Source: Helicostylum pulchrum
Lineage: Eukaryota > Mucoromycota > Mucoromycetes > Mucorales > Mucoraceae
DNA: 56,120 nucleotides
Direction of reading: 5' to 3'
Assembly (NCBI GenBank): GCA_025677825.1
Contig: JAIXMO010000097.1
Location: 1-56,120, forward strand
A program made the translations under genes and the position numbers. This document shows positions 1,647 through 55,336 of this stretch, piece after piece. Positions within the stretch are counted from its first letter, which is position 1. Every line of letters begins with the position of its first letter. Under the pieces are notes generated by a model. It was not told the DNA's origin, ran no database searches, and worked only from the letters and a program-made list of their open reading frames with translations.

Positions 1647-3120
1647 AGAGAAATCACGGAAAACACTTCCGGGACGTTATACCCAGACAACGTTTCCTCT
1701 CCACCATTAACTTCTTTGTCCCCTACATTAGAGACAAATGAGCCGCCAACTGACGTGTCACCTATTCGTAGCTACGCAGCTGTCACCTCAATCTCATCTC
1801 GCTACTCGCCTAATTTGAGAATTAACACCAACTCGACAATGGTAACCTCATCTAGAGTTAGAAAAGAGGTACCTCTATTTCGTTCCTCCGCCATTGGTGG
1901 ACGCGCTGATGATAGTTCCAGACAACTAGCTCACCGTACTGGTACTACAGACCATTCCGTTTTTTACCAAGTACCTAAGCACCTTTCTTCGTTGAAAGCT
2001 GACCTTCACACTCAGATCAGACAATTGTTTCCTTTTGGAGTCGGCCTCGGGTTAACATCCTCAGAAGATAATGAAGGTACAACTATCGAAATCACCTTGA
2101 ATGATAAAGAATCCTGTGAACCTGCGGTCGCCTCCCCCATCACTATCAAGGAGGTGACATTTCACGCCTCACCTGCGGTACACCCCGACCAAGCAAGCTC
2201 TTCGTGTTAATTTAACTAAGTTACCTATATGGAACCTCGATAAGCTTCGTAATAGTTTAATGAATAATCTTTCTAGATACGGTATTGTAAGAGAGATTAT
2301 TATATATCTGGACGATTGCTCAGGCAGTTGGCTTACAGGAAATGGACACGTATACATTGAGCGACCCGTTCAAAACGATAAAACTTTTGAAACCTTATCG
2401 TATAAGATTCCTTTAGAGGCTGAACGTACATTCTGTTTAGGCACTTGAACAAACATAGGAAAACACTGTGCTTACTGCAAAGATACTGGACATTATCGAA
2501 AAGAATGCACCAAAGCTCCCGAGGAAAAAAGACGCTGTTTCCAATGTGATAACACAGGCCACATAGCCCGTAACTGTTTCCACACCAAAGGGGATGATTC
2601 CACGTCGAGCAAACGAAAACGTGAGTCTCGTAATCCCTCCTGCCCTGTGTCTACATTGCTTGTAAACACAGTACTTCCTGTCACACCTCCTGTTACGTCT
2701 ATTGCTTTGGTTGACTCACCCATCTCAGTGAACGAAGTTACGACCGTCCATGATAGCGATGATACCGTTTTCTCTACTGATCTCATTACTGATAAAAACG
2801 ATGCGACTTTTAGTACGGTCACCAGACAAAATACAACATCTGAGTCTCCTTCAACCCAAGGGTCTGATGCTAGTTTATCTCGCCCACGACGCACCAATGC
2901 AGGATACAATCTCACCTTACATGATTTTATTGTACCCACAACTACTAAAACATGTAAATGCGGTGGCACAGATCATCAAAAGACCAATAGTTCTAAGTGT
3001 CCGTTGAATAAGAAAAACTTAGAGAGTAACCCTGCCAATATGACTCCTGTAATCACTACTACCAACGAAACTCAAACGTCCGAAATTCTAGTAACGTCGA
3101 ACGCAATGGAGGAGGATTAA
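1647..3120 (+). pseudogene. LINE ORF1 (RRM plus CCHC zinc-knuckle nucleic-acid chaperone), broken
   Basis: The frame opens after a TAG at 1644 and no ATG opens it, so the start is unknown. A Ser/Thr-rich N-terminal part runs to about 2200, where a frame change is needed. An RRM-like segment follows (VNLTKLPIWNLDKL, then SRYGIVREIIIYLDD). A TGA at 2446-2448 interrupts the frame just before two CCHC knuckles (CAYCKDTGHYRKEC and CFQCDNTGHIARNC, about 2470-2580). The remainder is low-complexity Ser/Thr-rich, with a further Cys/His cluster CKCGGTDHQKTNSSKC near 2950-3000, ending in TAA. The RRM-knuckle order is typical of ORF1 in this LINE group, where the protein binds element RNA. Confidence 0.8.
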
Positions 3121-11439: not shown

Positions 11440-12900
11440 GAAATGCGGAAGAGGAAAAGGAGTAAAACTTAATTTCACCAGTTGTTCACGAGATAAGGTT
11501 AATAAAAGAGACCTCGCCATAGAGACTACTGTTGGAGTAAGGGAAGGTTGCTCGTTAAAAACGAAACTGAAATGAGCTCGCCAGATAGCAAGGAGAGTGT
11601 GTCATCGGTAAGTCTTCAGGAAGGACTTCAGGGTACACCGGGCATTTTTCGTGATATTCCGTTGATGTAAGGCGTGGTCCTGATTGTGTCAGAAAGCAGG
11701 TCGTGAGAAAGGAGTCAGCTTCCACTCTTGTGTGAGTGATCGGAGTGAAAGGGGGACACCAAAGCGAGCGAATCGTGATTCTATAAAAGTTCAAATAAAG
11801 TAAGGGACCAAGGAAATTGTATCTTTCCGAACCGCCTTTACGAACTTCTTGACCAGCCTTGGATGGATAGTGAGTTATTTCAGTGGGGGGGGGGGGACGA
11901 AATCTGGTGGTGCAAGTAGTTGGATCGATCAAATACTCATCCTGAACTGAAAGTTTCAGTACTGATTTACCGACTATTGGTGTAGATTCTGGCTTAACAA
12001 CGGCGCTAATCAGCAAGCGTAGTGTAGTTTCTAAGTTGATCTCTACGCCGGAAAAATATTTAGGGTGAAAATCGATTGCTCGAAATAATAAATACATTGG
12101 GCTGTCTCTATCAGCAAGTCGGGAATGCCGTATGCCTGGGAAAAGAAAGGAAAGCCGGTAGTCGGAATCGAGAATGGCTGTATGGCAAGGTAGCTCGAGA
12201 TGATATATAACATAGTCTGCAAGTAGCGGAAGCACAATAGATTGTTGTAGTTCATCGGCCACCCAAAAGTCGGGATGTATGTTTGGCAAATTGAGAAGAG
12301 GGCGTAGCCATCGAAGCTGTAGAGAAGATTGCTGTATAAACGGATTAAGAAGACCTAAACTACCAGATTTCCTATCTAGAGTCATTTTATCAAAACTAGT
12401 TCGAGGAAAGCAGCGACGACTGATGAAACCAGATATAAGCGAGACAACCGATGATAAGAACTCTTTTGTAGCGGAAACAACCTGGAGCATATACCAAAGT
12501 TTAGACAGAATGAGACTATTAGCAACTCTAGCAGAATTTATTCGACACTTGAATAGCAATAGTAACATGACCTTGAAATGACAGAGACCAGTGACTATGA
12601 ATATTGCAAGCCGATTCGATTTTTCAAAGGAGACTATTTTGATGTACATCTCTTTGCCTAGGATTGTGAAATATCGGATAACCGAGATAAATGATAAGGC
12701 CAGATGCCCTTGTATCATGCCAGACTGAAATATTATTCTGAGATAATGGGGGTAAATCCAACAAGGAAATTCCAGCTCCAATTTAAGACGTATTTTTTTT
12801 TCGCTGTTTCGAACTTCACCAAAAAAAGTAGTTTGTCCCACCTCTTTTATTCTCAGTTGTGTAGAAGCTCTAATCTGCAAACACCTTTATTCTTTCCAGT
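11440..12900 (-). mobile_element. LINE ORF2 3' fragment (RT thumb and C-terminus), frame-damaged
   Basis: Reading on the minus strand, an upstream frame gives YLGYPIFHNPRQRDVHQNSL and ACNIHSHWSLSFQGHVT (about 12715-12550). The longest frame (12880-11555) then gives ANSLILSKLWYMLQVV, RRCFPRTSFDKMTL, KSGSLGLLNPF and LQLRWLRPLL. These are the conserved post-palm blocks of L1-like elements of Mucorales. The C-terminal HFSFVFNEQPSLTP block continues past the 11555 frame end to about 11460. The element lacks ORF1, the endonuclease and the RT palm, and needs frame changes, so it is a 5'-truncated relic. Ends are approximate. Confidence 0.8.
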
Positions 12901-49927: not shown

Positions 49928-51076
49928 ATGGGGTCCGGGAAAGGTGAATCTGATAATTATTTTGGAACCTCCTTATTTACCAAACAGTTAAGGAAAGTAA
50001 GGTTATTGGATGAAACGAAAGATGACGTGAGTTTTAATTTCGAACGCCCTTATTTACCTAACAGATAAGCGGTTTTTGAAAATAAATAAAATAAAATAAA
50101 AACATATTTTAGTCTTTTCACTTTAATGATATCAAATCTTTTTATTTTAAACAGTGTCAAGTAATAACGCTACATCTATTCATATTATTTGTTATACGCT
50201 CATTTCAGAGAGACTTACCGTATCTTTGACCAATTGGGAGAAAGCGGTAGCAGACTATATTCCCCTCCACGGTGTCAGATTTGTGAAAGGCACAACTAGA
50301 ACCGCAGAGGAGCAAGAGAGGGCACAAGCTCAGCGATTAAATGCCACCAAAGGTCCTAAGCCCAGAACCCGCTATGTTAATTACGTTTTCAAAACGTATT
50401 ACTCTTGTCATCATTCCGGTGAAAAGAGGCACGCTAAAACAGAGCAAAACAATAGCAGCGAAGGGTCTAGAAAGTTACAAAAAAAAGTAACAAAAAATTG
50501 AATGTACTGCTAACTAGTTTGGTAGCTACCTGTTATAAAAGCGATCCTAATAACGTTGTCTTGTATCACACTGGTAACCATAATCATCAGATTGCTGGGC
50601 TTGAAGACTCGAAGTTTCTTCCATTGTCACAAGTAGCTAAACAGTTGAATGAGCAAATATTATGCAAAGGATTCAGAAAGAGAGACACCAGAATTTCAAT
50701 TCAAAACAATTTTCTTCGTCATAGTCAAGCCAACTTTAATATCGATGTAGAGCAATCTCTTGGTAACAAAGCTCAAGTTATCGTTCACCGTGATCAGATG
50801 GTTCACTCCACAGAGAAAAAAGCACAAGATCCGAAAGATTCCGTTAAACTTTGGTTGACCCAGTTAAAAAAAGTTATTTTATGGAGTCAATCTGCGTTGT
50901 GTTTCAAAATTTCAGTTAGTAGGTTGATTGTTACTGTTGAGGATGTTACCAATTGTGCTTTATCTAAAGCTCTAATTAAATTATCACTACTAGTAGTAAG
51001 AATTGAATTCCTGTTAATGTACATACTCGATATAAGATGCGAGAGACTGCTTGTAAAAGCATGTGGAAGGTTCTGA
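49928..51076 (+). pseudogene. MULE-type transposase N-terminal fragment (WRKY-GCM1/FLYWCH-like zinc finger)
   Basis: A first segment MGSGKGESDNYFGTSLFTKQ (49928) may be an exon before GTGAGT. The main frame from about 50205 reads LTNWEKAVADYIPLHGVRF, then YYSCHHSGEKR (about 50398), a Lys-rich stretch, and in a shifted frame KIECTAN / ATCYKSDPNNVVLYHTGNHNH (about 50500-50590). The C-x2-H...C...H-N-H pattern is the zinc-binding module at the N-terminus of many Mutator-like transposases. The frame shift near 50500 and absence of a DDE domain mark a fragment. It sits head-to-head to tail with the Fanzor gene, 170 bp from its 3' end. Confidence 0.55.
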
Positions 51077-51245: not shown

Positions 51246-54200
51246 CTAAGTTTCTTCATTGTCTTCATCTTGTTGCCTTATACCTCTGGACAGTTGTTCC
51301 GGTCTAGATTCCAGGTCGAATCCTTGTTCAACATACGCAGTAAGGATTTGCCTGATGTTGGAAGCAGCGTTAACGTCTCTATTCCAATACTAAGAAATAT
51401 ATATTTGGTGCAAGTATAAATATATTCCTAAACTAAAGGGTTATATTACGTACCAATGGGCCGGCGTTATTTCCAGCTTGACATTGCCGGCACAGCTTCA
51501 GCGGATAAATGTCACAGCTTCGTCCTACAAAAGTTAACGAAATCAGCACTAGTTTATTGTAAGCGCCAATAAGTGAAAAATAGACTTTACCTGGACGAAC
51601 TCGTTCAGGACATTCACTAGTTTTGTGCAAGACGTGGTTTTCTTCATTAAAACATTTTAGTACTGCTTTTTTTTCGTCTGGGTGTCCATCTTGCCCGTTT
51701 GAACGATGTAGTTTTTTTCTATAAATTTAAAAAAAAATGAGTATAAAGAACTATAATTTGCTGTACTATTTATAAAGAACGAATAGTGTTACGTGTGTGT
51801 GTACAAACTAGACGCTCATCAGGTGTCGTTTCTAATCTTCCAAAACAATGGGAACATGTTACAGACGTACGGAATTCATCGACTGGAATTACAAGGGCTT
51901 TAGTTGCTATTGCTCTTTGTATCGCCTATACATCGAAAAAGATAAATAAAAAATACTAGACATTTACATTGCGCATAATTTTTACCTTTACTGGAATAGG
52001 AGTGTTGCCTTTATAGGTGCTTCGAATGGAAGCATCACCATATGCTACAACAGTGCGTTGATTATTATTACCTGGAGTCCTAATTGAAGGGGGATACGAA
52101 GGACGAGGATTTTGAGAGAAACGTCGTATAATCGTTCGGCGATATCTCTTTCTTATCTTTCGTTGATGTGAAGAAGAAGAATCATGAGAGAGTTTGTACG
52201 GTTCTTCCTTGTTTGTCGTACCAAGAATAACTCGGGCTACATGATCTTGAGCTCTTTGGCGATTTGAATAATTATGCCCCTTATTCTCCCTGTGCTTATA
52301 GGATTTCATAAAGTCAAATATCCTATATATTTATCAAATAATTAAGTTAATTTTCTATCGTCCATTACAATTATTTTATCTTATACTTTTTGTGTTCTTG
52401 ATAAACAGAATTTAAGAACTGTCTAATTTCGTAGGTATTGGAAACCTTTGAGCTTTTTAGGCGGTCTGTAAGAATCCTTGCATTCTCTCTTTATTACGGC
52501 TTTGTAGCTCTCTTTGATTAATCCACTGCATACCCGAACGGAGCCTAGTAGGTTAAATTTTTTTTTAGTAGTCTATTAAAATTGTTGTGTGACTAACGTT
52601 ATTGACAATAAACTTACTTATACGACGCGTTACTAATCGATAATGAGTGTTCCTTAGTAGTGTACTTGTTAGTCAATTCTTGAGGTGTACAGTCAACGGC
52701 ACAAACAATGTCGCGAACACCTAGCAAAAAAAAATTAGTGTCTATTATACTCATACTTTTAATATTTAACATACCAGGGTCAATTCCAATAATTCTGTCC
52801 TGCAGTGTAATACCAGTTGGGTTTTTATACAATGGATATATACCTCTGGTCTTGTTTGTCAAGTTAAGATTTCTTTTCTGAAACTTTACTTCCTTCGTAT
52901 CAAATGGTATTTGCTCCCTGGATACTCGCTCAAACAAAACTGAAATTATGTGGCCATCAGTAGTGAGACCAAAACCAAGTTTTGCTCTTCGGAGGGGATC
53001 GTTAATATCAAGATCATTATTTTCTCCTTGTAAGTACGTTAAACACCGTTTTTGTAACTTATTAATATTAAACAGAGTTTCCCAAATTCTCTGTCTATTA
53101 GCAATTCCCGAATAAATATCAAGAAAAGCTGTTACGCCTATAAAATTACCGTTACGACCCAATAAATCATCCGGTATGCGAATATTTCGATTATTGGCTT
53201 TTTCAAATAGACCATACATTGTAACATATGAATTAAGAGGAAAATGAACAATTCGATGACTCGACGGGGAAGGAAGGAGACAGCAACGTTTGACCGGCCA
53301 ATCAACGTTACGTGAGGCTTCTTGGAGCAAACGATAGCTCACACGTAAATACTTTAAAGGGTGTGCCTTGGCGCTTTCGTAATCCAATAAATCTTCAGGT
53401 TCAGTAGCACGAAAGTCAGCGTCAAATATTAATTTAATACGATTGTATACATCTATAAGGCCAGGTATTTCATGTTCAATTTGTAAATCTTCGTATTGAT
53501 GATGGTTGATAATTCTATTGGCGGCTTTCTTGGCTATACTAAATCAAAAATATAAGTCATTATTCAAAGATATTGAGTGCGATATATATATATGAATATA
53601 TATATTTACCTATAGTCATGACAGGAACTTGAACATTATTTCGTCTTTGATGAAACAATAAGAAGCCTTTGAATAGATGAATCATCCATAAATTGATAGA
53701 AAGAAGATGCATTGTGACATCTAGATAAAATAAGAGTTAAGTGTCTCTAAATATATAAAGTATATATCGAACTCACTTTGAATTATAGAACTGACTATAA
53801 CTATGAGAAATTCCCCTGTGTATATTGTCTACAACTGGTAAGTTATAAAAATAATTAATCTGTGCCAGGAACCTTTCTTGAAACATCAAAGTCATCAAAG
53901 TATGATACGATTGACCTATTGAAATTCCTAAAATTGAAAAAAAAAAACTATATTAAGATACTGCGTATATGGGAATTTTTCTACACTGTCACTTACAATT
54001 CGCCGATTATCGTTTTCAGGGTCTGCTAAAGCCTTTCTATATACGTGAGACCAAAAAGTCTCGTCGGTAACGCTCGGAAAAATGAAGCTTGTACTCAGGA
54101 TCTCTTAACGCCAAAACAATTTGCTGCAAGGTAGAATCGACAATTTGAAAATTTTGGTAAAATTTTTCAGCGATATCAATCGTTTGTAATAGAATTTTGC

Positions 54201-55336
54201 GTGTTACGGATATATTCTTGTGCTATTTCGTTTTGGTTCAAGAAATCTTGGTCTCGCAACTCTTGTTCTCTCATTCTTTGTAAAGCTGCTTGTGAAGATA
54301 GAACTGCGATCTGGATTTGCCGGATAGTTCTCAAGCGAACGTTATCTGCCTGTTCTAATGGTTGTTCTCTTAAAATAGTTGCAAGTTTCCCACGCAAAGC
54401 TAAAATTTTACGTTCCAGATCCCTTAGATTTCTAGCATTTTTGAAGGACTGCTTGTTGGTTTTCAGTTACCGAGTTAAAAAGAGCAGTGAGCTGTTCTTC
54501 AGTAGTGGTCTTGACATTTTCTGCGGCTTCGGCAGCACGAGCAGTAACAGTTCTTAAGTCTGTAAATTGCGGATGTAGGTCAAGTAAACTAAGCGAATAT
54601 GTAAGCTTAGATTGTCTTGTGCCGTTCTTTGTTGTTCATATTCAAGTTGTCCTTCTTGACTGTTAATATTATTGTTTAATTCTACTAATAGTTTCGTCTA
54701 ATCGTTGGCTGGTGGGAAGTATTTCAGTAAAATAGTTTTGTATTTGAGCGCGCAAATCCAATAAATTTTCATACTGGTTGGGAATGATTTGTTCTTGTTG
54801 TAATGAATTTGTTGTTTGTTGTAATAAATCTCGAAGTTGATTCATCAAAAACGTTTCGTGAAGAATTCTTCGCAAATATATTTGAATTTGGGGGACTTGT
54901 TGGGTTTGGTAAGCAAAGAGTTCAACACATTGAGTATTAAACCACTGAATCACCATAAATAAAACAAAATTCAAGGCGTCACGACGAGCAATGGTAAATT
55001 CTTCTGCTACCTTACGGAATAAGTTTTATTACTTACTGATAAATTAAAAATGATAAATTTTACGCTTTTAATCAATTGATTTTTATCTCATAGACTTTAT
55101 AATTAGGCGTCAAAAGAGTAGCAAGTTTACTCTTCGATTAAAAAAAGGCTTTGTAAATCTTATCGTCAGGTTCTTCAGGTACAGGGTTTTGGGGCGGGAG
55201 GATTATCGTCAGGATCCACTCTTCGTCTTCTGCGATCACTGGCAGTTAGTAGGTTTCTTTTTCTTTTCACTAAATATATATAAAAAACAGTGTCAGCGTA
55301 CTTATATTATAGGGTGTTACAAAACTTACAGGTCAT
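51246..55336 (-). pseudogene. Fanzor (eukaryotic TnpB-like RNA-guided nuclease) gene, frame-damaged
   Basis: Exons read on the minus strand: 55336-55330, then from 55269 an N-terminal part with NLS-like KRKR and RRRRR; a helical region to about 54000 (ARRDALNFVLFMVIQWFN, several frame changes); 53533-52775; 52720-52618; 52544-52387; 52322-51986; 51925-51793; 51718-51591; 51524-51454; 51389-51246. RuvC-I is RIIGIDPGVRDIVCAVD, split by an intron after GIDP. The RuvC-II site reads VVAYGDASI with no Glu, and the alternative Glu lies in VDEFRTS, as in the rearranged Fanzor active site. Zinc ribbon: CSHC and CRQC. RuvC-III is WNRDVNAASNIRQ. Frame breaks: about 55160, 54680-54070 (several), 53650, 52475 (GAGAGA run) and the 51793/51718 junction. 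Confidence 0.85.

Follow-up and report, generated by a model that had tools for sequence, protein, structure and literature searches.

The locus and its gene

The subject of this report is a gene for a Fanzor, an RNA-guided nuclease, together with the transposable element that holds it, in the window formed by the whole of contig C166 (JAIXMO010000097.1, 56,120 bp) of the fungus Helicostylum pulchrum, whose assembled genome comprises 32.2 Mb in 168 contigs. The gene, predicted to have 13 exons on the minus strand (51246–55336), was modelled by comparing its siblings and a diverged relative. The splice model of the window copy is that of the copy L010 carried over by alignment; in L010 all 12 introns begin with GT and end with AG, and they measure 54–76 nt. 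The spliced model extends from a start codon at 55336–55334 to a stop codon ending at 51246, the very limits that an earlier note, made from the letters of this DNA, had given to the locus, and the Fanzor motifs that it had listed in order on the minus strand are all present between them. Four further near-identical copies exist in the genome (three cover the whole of a 2,355-bp query and one a part of it), which with the window copy form family A (C166, C139, C116, C87 and C83), and a second family, B, with only 43% identity in protein, repeats the arrangement exon by exon. On these two grounds, the motif pattern is not a product of chance.

Identification as a Fanzor1

In the family A copy L011 (contig C116) the spliced frame has 1,100 residues with one internal stop, and the motifs IIGIDPG, AYGDAS, DEFRTS, CSHC, CRQC and NRDVN lie at positions 739, 924, 959, 967, 1041 and 1056, respectively. 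The published pattern of Fanzor1 proteins, D-X(125,275)-[TS][TS]XX-C4 zinc finger-X(5,50)-RD (Bao and Jurka, 2013; PMC3627910, excerpt), is found in this translation as D743, T963 and S964, CSHC 967, CRQC 1041, and R1057 and D1058. The alternative RuvC-II glutamate of Fanzors is described as lying six residues upstream of the zinc finger (PMC10711439, excerpt), and L011 has E960 followed by FRTSVT and C967, that is, a glutamate six residues ahead of CxxC, which is invariant in the four aligned rows (family A, family B, a third family on contig C130, and L034, an ordinary Fanzor of the same genome). IIGIDPG is present in families A, B and C130. For comparison, the metal site of the Fanzor of Spizellomyces punctatus, SpuFz1, consists of Glu541, Asp383 and Asp606 (PMC10432273, excerpt).

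Similarity searches point in the same direction. BLASTP aligns the L011 translation, unmixed with other copies, to L034 at 2e-8, over the stretch that runs from DPG up to the first CxxC. A profile of three rows (A2: families A, B and C130) matches L034 with an E value of 9.2e-12; in this alignment the Asp, Glu and Asp residues and the two CxxC pairs stand opposite their counterparts. When L034 is included as a fourth row (A1), the sole significant match in the PDB is the Fanzor1 of Parasitella parasitica (9cf0; full-sequence E value 5.3e-6), and the Spizellomyces Fanzor 8gkh is reached at 0.22.

Several results count against this assignment. In the match of A1 to 9cf0 no single stretch is significant alone (i-Evalues 0.082 and 2.4), and A2 retrieves no PDB Fanzor even at E values up to 10, which indicates that the large Fanzors are remote. 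PDB searches with the exon 6 frame, the L012 protein and the C-terminal region of L011 returned no Fanzor, and L034 alone reaches only GtFz1, at 0.07. The family A sequence scores 17.2 bits for Pfam PF07282, below the cut-off of 26.3 (family B, 25.3, also below; L034, 42.1, above). An NCBIfam search gave no result. A filter used in searches for TnpB, which is not a definition of Fanzor1, expects DPG x(120-160) E and CxxC x(12-18) CxxC x(4-8) D (PMC10711439, excerpt); L011 lies outside it, with 214 residues between DPG and Glu, CxxC pairs approximately 70 residues apart and 13 residues before D1058.

Judged by its motifs and by these matches, the gene is of the Fanzor1 type. The proposal that it is a Fanzor with a displaced RuvC glutamate is borne out by the Glu–CxxC spacing, the comparison with L034 and the combined profile; the displacement is nothing special among Fanzors, of which a repositioned glutamate is typical (PMC10711439, excerpt). 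Its reading as a Mucoromycota copy is plausible, the best PDB match being from Parasitella and MuDr-type Fanzor1 genes having been described in Rhizopus, Phycomyces and Mucor.

The genome as a whole gives 51 matches to PF07282 at E values up to 1, and the 17 loci that pass the cut-off (L033 and L034, at C136:293214 and C158:323164, among them) indicate many other Fanzor- or TnpB-type genes. Relatives were also sought with two short peptide patterns, and none was confirmed among 67 pattern matches in viral contigs or 595 in prokaryote contigs.

The carrier is a Mutator-like element

All five family A copies share a boundary, which in the window is at 50042 and is an inverted repeat. Complete family A elements measure 6,738 bp (C139) and 6,047 bp (C87, where the 5' part of the Fanzor is missing), and they are flanked by the perfect 8-bp target duplications CCCATCTT and ATTTAGTT, respectively. 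Paired terminal inverted repeats, here called START and END, are found in six elements of 2.7–8.0 kb. Family B (C32, C108, C138, C115, C94 with an internal deletion, and C109, truncated) has the order START-Fanzor-transposase-END, and those three of its copies that keep both repeats are 8.0 kb long. The Mutator-like element (MULE) domain PF10551 is above its cut-off in four of five family B elements (C108, C138, C32 and C94:32898), with C115 below it at 26.5 bits, and likewise in a related element of 2,686 bp (C94:129968-132653) that has a transposase and no Fanzor match. In the copy L018 the Pfam SWIM domain is above its cut-off and FAR1 below.

These elements resemble the MULE/MuDR superfamily in their terminal inverted repeats, in the FAR1-MULE-SWIM transposase of the siblings and in the 8-bp target duplication of two copies; they differ from it in the Fanzor cargo and in an END that often lies approximately 13 bp from a motif like the cAMP response element (CRE). 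MULE target duplications have 8–11 bp. A perfect 8-bp duplication accompanies two of the six complete elements, both of family A; the three complete family B copies and C94:129968 lack one, apart from a possible 7-bp duplication at C108, and this is a point on the other side. In the window element, the transposase is reduced to an N-terminal fragment (Table 1) from which the MULE domain has been truncated away, which makes the element non-autonomous.

Taken together, we regard it as very probable that the locus is a decayed gene for a large Fanzor1 carried as cargo by a Mutator-like DNA transposon.

Table 1. Positions of the gene and element features in the window
Feature	Position	Strand	Basis
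END terminal inverted repeat, GAACGCCCTTATTTACCTAACAGATAAG read inward	50042..50069	+	shared copy boundary; length by eye
CRE-like ACGTCA, 14-19 bp outside END (TGACGT on + strand)	50023..50028	-	
START fragment of another copy, 77 bp, abutting window END	49965..50041	+	
MULE transposase (MURA) fragment, first ~250 residues, frame-broken, convergent with Fanzor	50151..50872	+	tblastn with 519-residue transposase frame; 92% DNA identity to family B over 678 bp
Exon 13, YWNRDVNAASNI (RuvC-III Asp codon 51377-51375), stop	51246..51389	-	
Exon 12, second CxxC (CRQC)	51454..51524	-	
Exon 11, extra Cys/His-rich insertion of zinc domain	51591..51718	-	
Exon 10, VDEFRTS (alternative RuvC-II Glu codon 51877-51875), first CxxC; one 2-nt frame-changing indel	51793..51925	-	
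Exon 9, AYGDAS strand	51986..52322	-	
Exon 8, 2 frame-changing indels	52387..52544	-	
Exon 7	52618..52720	-	
Exon 6, IIGIDPG at its end (RuvC-I Asp codon 52781-52779)	52775..53533	-	
Exon 5	53610..53720	-	
Exon 4, 2 frame-changing indels	53777..53926	-	
Exon 3, long N-terminal region, ~340 codons, coiled-coil-like by eye; 5 frame-changing indels; intron 2 acceptor altered	53997..55025	-	
Exon 2, basic KRKR/RRRRR stretch; 1 frame-changing indel; intron 2 donor altered	55087..55269	-	
Exon 1, start codon	55330..55336	-	L010-transferred splice model
START-proximal non-coding part, common with family B; START repeat beyond contig end	55571..56120	-	

Elsewhere in the window, at 11555–12886 (minus strand) and 2449–3120 (plus strand), two open frames resemble, by eye, a reverse-transcriptase fragment and a CCHC zinc-knuckle protein; they are possibly retroelement remnants.

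Decay of the window copy and its siblings

Compared with L011, the window copy has 11 insertions or deletions that change the frame (one in exon 2, five in exon 3, two in exon 4, two in exon 8 and one in exon 10). The opinion of the earlier note that the catalytic part is well preserved holds only in part, since frame changes are found in exon 8 and in exon 10, which belongs to the zinc ribbon, as well. Against three siblings the window copy has identities of 98.7–98.8% in exons and 98.4–99.2% in introns, and this equal divergence implies that the reading frame has been unconstrained since copying. Within family A, dN/dS (the ratio of nonsynonymous to synonymous substitution rates) ranges from 0.5 to 2.3, on few differences.

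It is unlikely that the frame changes are errors of assembly and that the copy is intact in the cell. They are mostly single-base insertions or deletions, and the contig stops inside a repeat 784 bp upstream of the start codon, as such errors would lead one to expect; however, the altered splice sites of intron 2 are common to the window copy and L011, and the two-base insertion of exon 10 to the window copy and L013, and changes common to separate contigs are improbable as read errors. By its sequence, the window copy is a dead pseudogene, and the evidence does not bear out an OMEGA locus in working order: the copy sits inside a MULE transposon that the earlier note had overlooked, and no guide RNA was found.

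No large-Fanzor copy among those modelled is fully open, which counts against the reading given above. L011 has one internal stop as well as altered intron 2 splice sites, L010 has a single frame change, and L012 is truncated at its 5' end, with an altered donor in intron 11 and the first zinc Cys lost. In family B, L025 has stops in exons 3 and 9 and a suspected frame change; in L026, exon 3 contains a stop and the acceptor of exon 4 is altered. L043, of C130, has a stop in its last exon. The differing lesions, as well as exons that diverge as fast as introns, near-identical multi-copy elements, terminal repeats and, in two of these elements, target duplications, all stand against the idea that a host nuclease was domesticated here for a task in the cell, for which the long multi-exon gene and the basic N-terminal stretch might be cited, and which we consider highly improbable.

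Exchange of the Fanzor between carriers

The two families have carriers that are much more alike than their cargoes. The START region of C139 (family A) is 96% identical to that of C138 (family B) over 1,293 bp, and the transposase fragment of family A is 92–93% identical to family B DNA over 678 bp. The Fanzors, compared as L011 against the exons of L025 and L026 with exons 11–13 left out, have 42.8% amino acid identity over 958 codons, with a saturated proportion of synonymous differences (pS 0.752) and a proportion of nonsynonymous differences (pN) of 0.387, which is lowest, 0.271, in the last 268 codons compared, those holding RuvC. Such saturated divergence on closely similar carriers means that the Fanzors did not diverge on these carriers and that one replaced the other. 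A fact that detracts from this argument is the lower START identity of C139 to other family B copies: 95% for C94, 92% for part of C115, 85% for C32 and C109, and 83% for C108. On the divergences themselves, nevertheless, the Fanzor is judged to have been exchanged as cargo between A and B carriers. The low pN beside a saturated pS further indicates that both lineages were under protein selection before they decayed.

Family A was also considered as a plain inversion of family B. This was rejected, since END lies beside the N terminus of the transposase at other loci too (C84:21478 and C90:384754), and family A is more likely a recombinant. The element on C109, considered as a third type of cargo, proved to be a truncated family B copy; at L060:1-1876 this copy ends within Fanzor exon 3, from where the frame runs on into unrelated sequence, giving an open frame of 308 residues. 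In L010, a near-perfect palindrome with 49-bp arms (2325–2422) is located upstream of the Fanzor start, where the START region common to A and B ends.

The association of the Fanzor with its carrier may be no more than hitch-hiking, in which a MULE took in a captured gene, or a Fanzor transposon that was once independent, and the nuclease and the transposase do not work together. This is a real possibility, though somewhat short of an even one. The Fanzor-free sibling on C94 makes the Fanzor an optional cargo, as hitch-hiking would have it, and the ends of the element have no unusual RNA fold. On the other hand, two deeply diverged Fanzors are found at equivalent positions behind one and the same START region, and on C154 a match to the MULE transposase (C154:48920) is approximately 2.1 kb away from large-Fanzor matches (C154:44650-46809); this recurrence disfavours a single accident without thereby showing a function.

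A CRE-like site outside END

The exact hexamer ACGTCA occurs within 35 bp in 8 of 19 distinct END flanks (10 of 19 when both strands are considered), where it starts 12–18 bp outside END. Its start is exactly at position 14 in five of the flanks, and in nine if up to one mismatch is allowed; five flanks (C139, C94a, C90b, C132b and C94M) lack a match even at one mismatch. The binomial chance of 8/19 against the base rate of the window is 8e-16, for a motif that was picked after seeing the data, and three END flanks share the longer ACGTCACACT, so the flanks may not be fully independent. None of 13 START flanks contains ACGTCA, either exactly or with one mismatch. These counts suggest an oriented, site-directed insertion, with a CRE-like site at a preferred distance outside END and not outside START.

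START itself contains TGACGTCA, and in the window END abuts a START fragment at that very spacing, as expected of a nested insertion. If the window copy were a simple insertion into another START, a START repeat and the 8-bp duplication TTAATTTC would be expected across the end of the contig. Six near-identical START fragments are known in the genome (L045–L049 and that of the window), 77 bp long except for one of 83 bp, and the ends of all of them fall on one base or close to it. After five of them comes unrelated DNA, with no target duplication, and after that of the window the END of the Fanzor element.

An enlarged protein

At approximately 1,100 residues, the large Fanzor exceeds most Fanzor1 proteins, which have 600–700 (PMC11423790, excerpt), and exon 3 contributes an N-terminal extension of approximately 340 codons. 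The approximately 70 residues between the CxxC pairs hold three further Cys, one His and YPLK, conserved in the A, B and C130 rows, where L034 has a short linker; this Cys/His-rich insertion may bind a second zinc.

PpFz1 of P. parasitica (PDB 9cf0–9cf3; PMC11423790, excerpt), the best PDB match of A1, has the same DPG..DEFRTS..CxxC..LWNRD arrangement, to which the large Fanzor adds the long N-terminal region and the Cys/His-rich insertion. PpFz1 has in RuvC an insertion of approximately 100 residues, FRI, that binds cyclophilin (PMC11423790, excerpt). An equivalent domain was considered for the large Fanzor and is probably absent, as its A1 alignment has approximately 60 fewer residues than PpFz1 ahead of the matched stretch; the Pro-rich stretches of A and B were discarded as FRI too, as they lie nearer the Glu and C130 is without them. 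SpuFz1 (PDB 8gkh; PMC10432273, excerpt) aligns in its Asp-Glu-Asp motifs; its element, of approximately 2.1 kb, has a single frame and a guide RNA at its right end, whereas the elements described here include 8-kb composites.

The third large-Fanzor family (L043; C130:58300-62500) has exons 7–8 and 9–12 of the window gene fused, and several introns are absent.

Guide RNA and a proposed mechanism

No guide RNA was found, either by RNA folding of the element ends or by an Rfam scan of the window, and this counts against a functional interpretation. Five end stretches, from both ends of the element, folded no better than shuffled sequences (z -0.38 to 0.29); the scans of the window gave no Rfam match, and a tRNA scan was without result. 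In the family B copy L026 only approximately 75 bp separate the Fanzor stop from the start of the transposase, from which it is predicted that the guide RNA is encoded at an end or overlaps the coding sequence.

A possible course of events can be outlined. The element was most likely moved by a transposase acting in trans, supplied by its 8-kb (family B) or 2.7-kb relatives, as suggested by the terminal repeats common to all forms. If intact, the Fanzor would enter the nucleus, associate with a guide RNA and use its Asp-Glu-Asp RuvC site to cleave DNA that matches the guide; what the copies display are the motifs of a cutter, and nuclease activity of an intact copy is presumed from them. The element would be kept if an emptied site were cut and then repaired with a filled copy as template, by analogy with TnpB, for which retention by cutting of the vacated site has been proposed (PMC10432273, excerpt). 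The window copy itself could no longer act as a cutter.

We propose, tentatively and as a rather doubtful reading, that the Fanzor serves as a functional module, open to exchange, in a MULE whose insertion is site-directed: the transposase would set one of the ends at its preferred spacing from a CRE/ATF-type site, and the RNA-guided cutter, a cassette swapped between carriers, would secure the insertion by cutting the unoccupied site.

Relation to known elements and implications

Fanzor1 genes in MuDr-type elements of fungi were published in 2013, namely ROr-4, PBl-3 and MCi-4 of Rhizopus, Phycomyces and Mucor (Bao and Jurka, 2013; PMC3627910, excerpt). These share with the present elements a Fanzor1 within Mutator-type terminal repeats and a fungal host. 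As excerpts of that survey describe them, they have no MuDR transposase and 9-bp duplications, whereas here siblings carry both genes, two copies have 8-bp duplications and the Fanzor has been exchanged; the comparison is by description only, and they may be the same families as those found here. Among the matches listed in a search of open-licence literature (titles and abstract starts), nothing beyond PMC3627910 reported a MULE with both a Fanzor and a transposase, or CRE-directed insertion of a MULE. New with respect to 2013 are the composite elements, a Fanzor exchanged between carriers of close similarity, the enlarged size of the protein and the preferred spacing of a CRE-like site.

The transposase reported missing from MuDr-type Fanzor elements is present in the composite ones, the preferred distance from ACGTCA offers a handle on target choice, and the large protein with its expanded zinc domain is a branch for comparison with the solved Fanzors. 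If the proposed module is real, it would be a counterpart, in a eukaryotic DDE transposon, of the TnpA-TnpB partnership. As to why eukaryotic transposons keep Fanzors, similar carriers with two very different Fanzors, or with none, make the question testable by a comparison of their retention.

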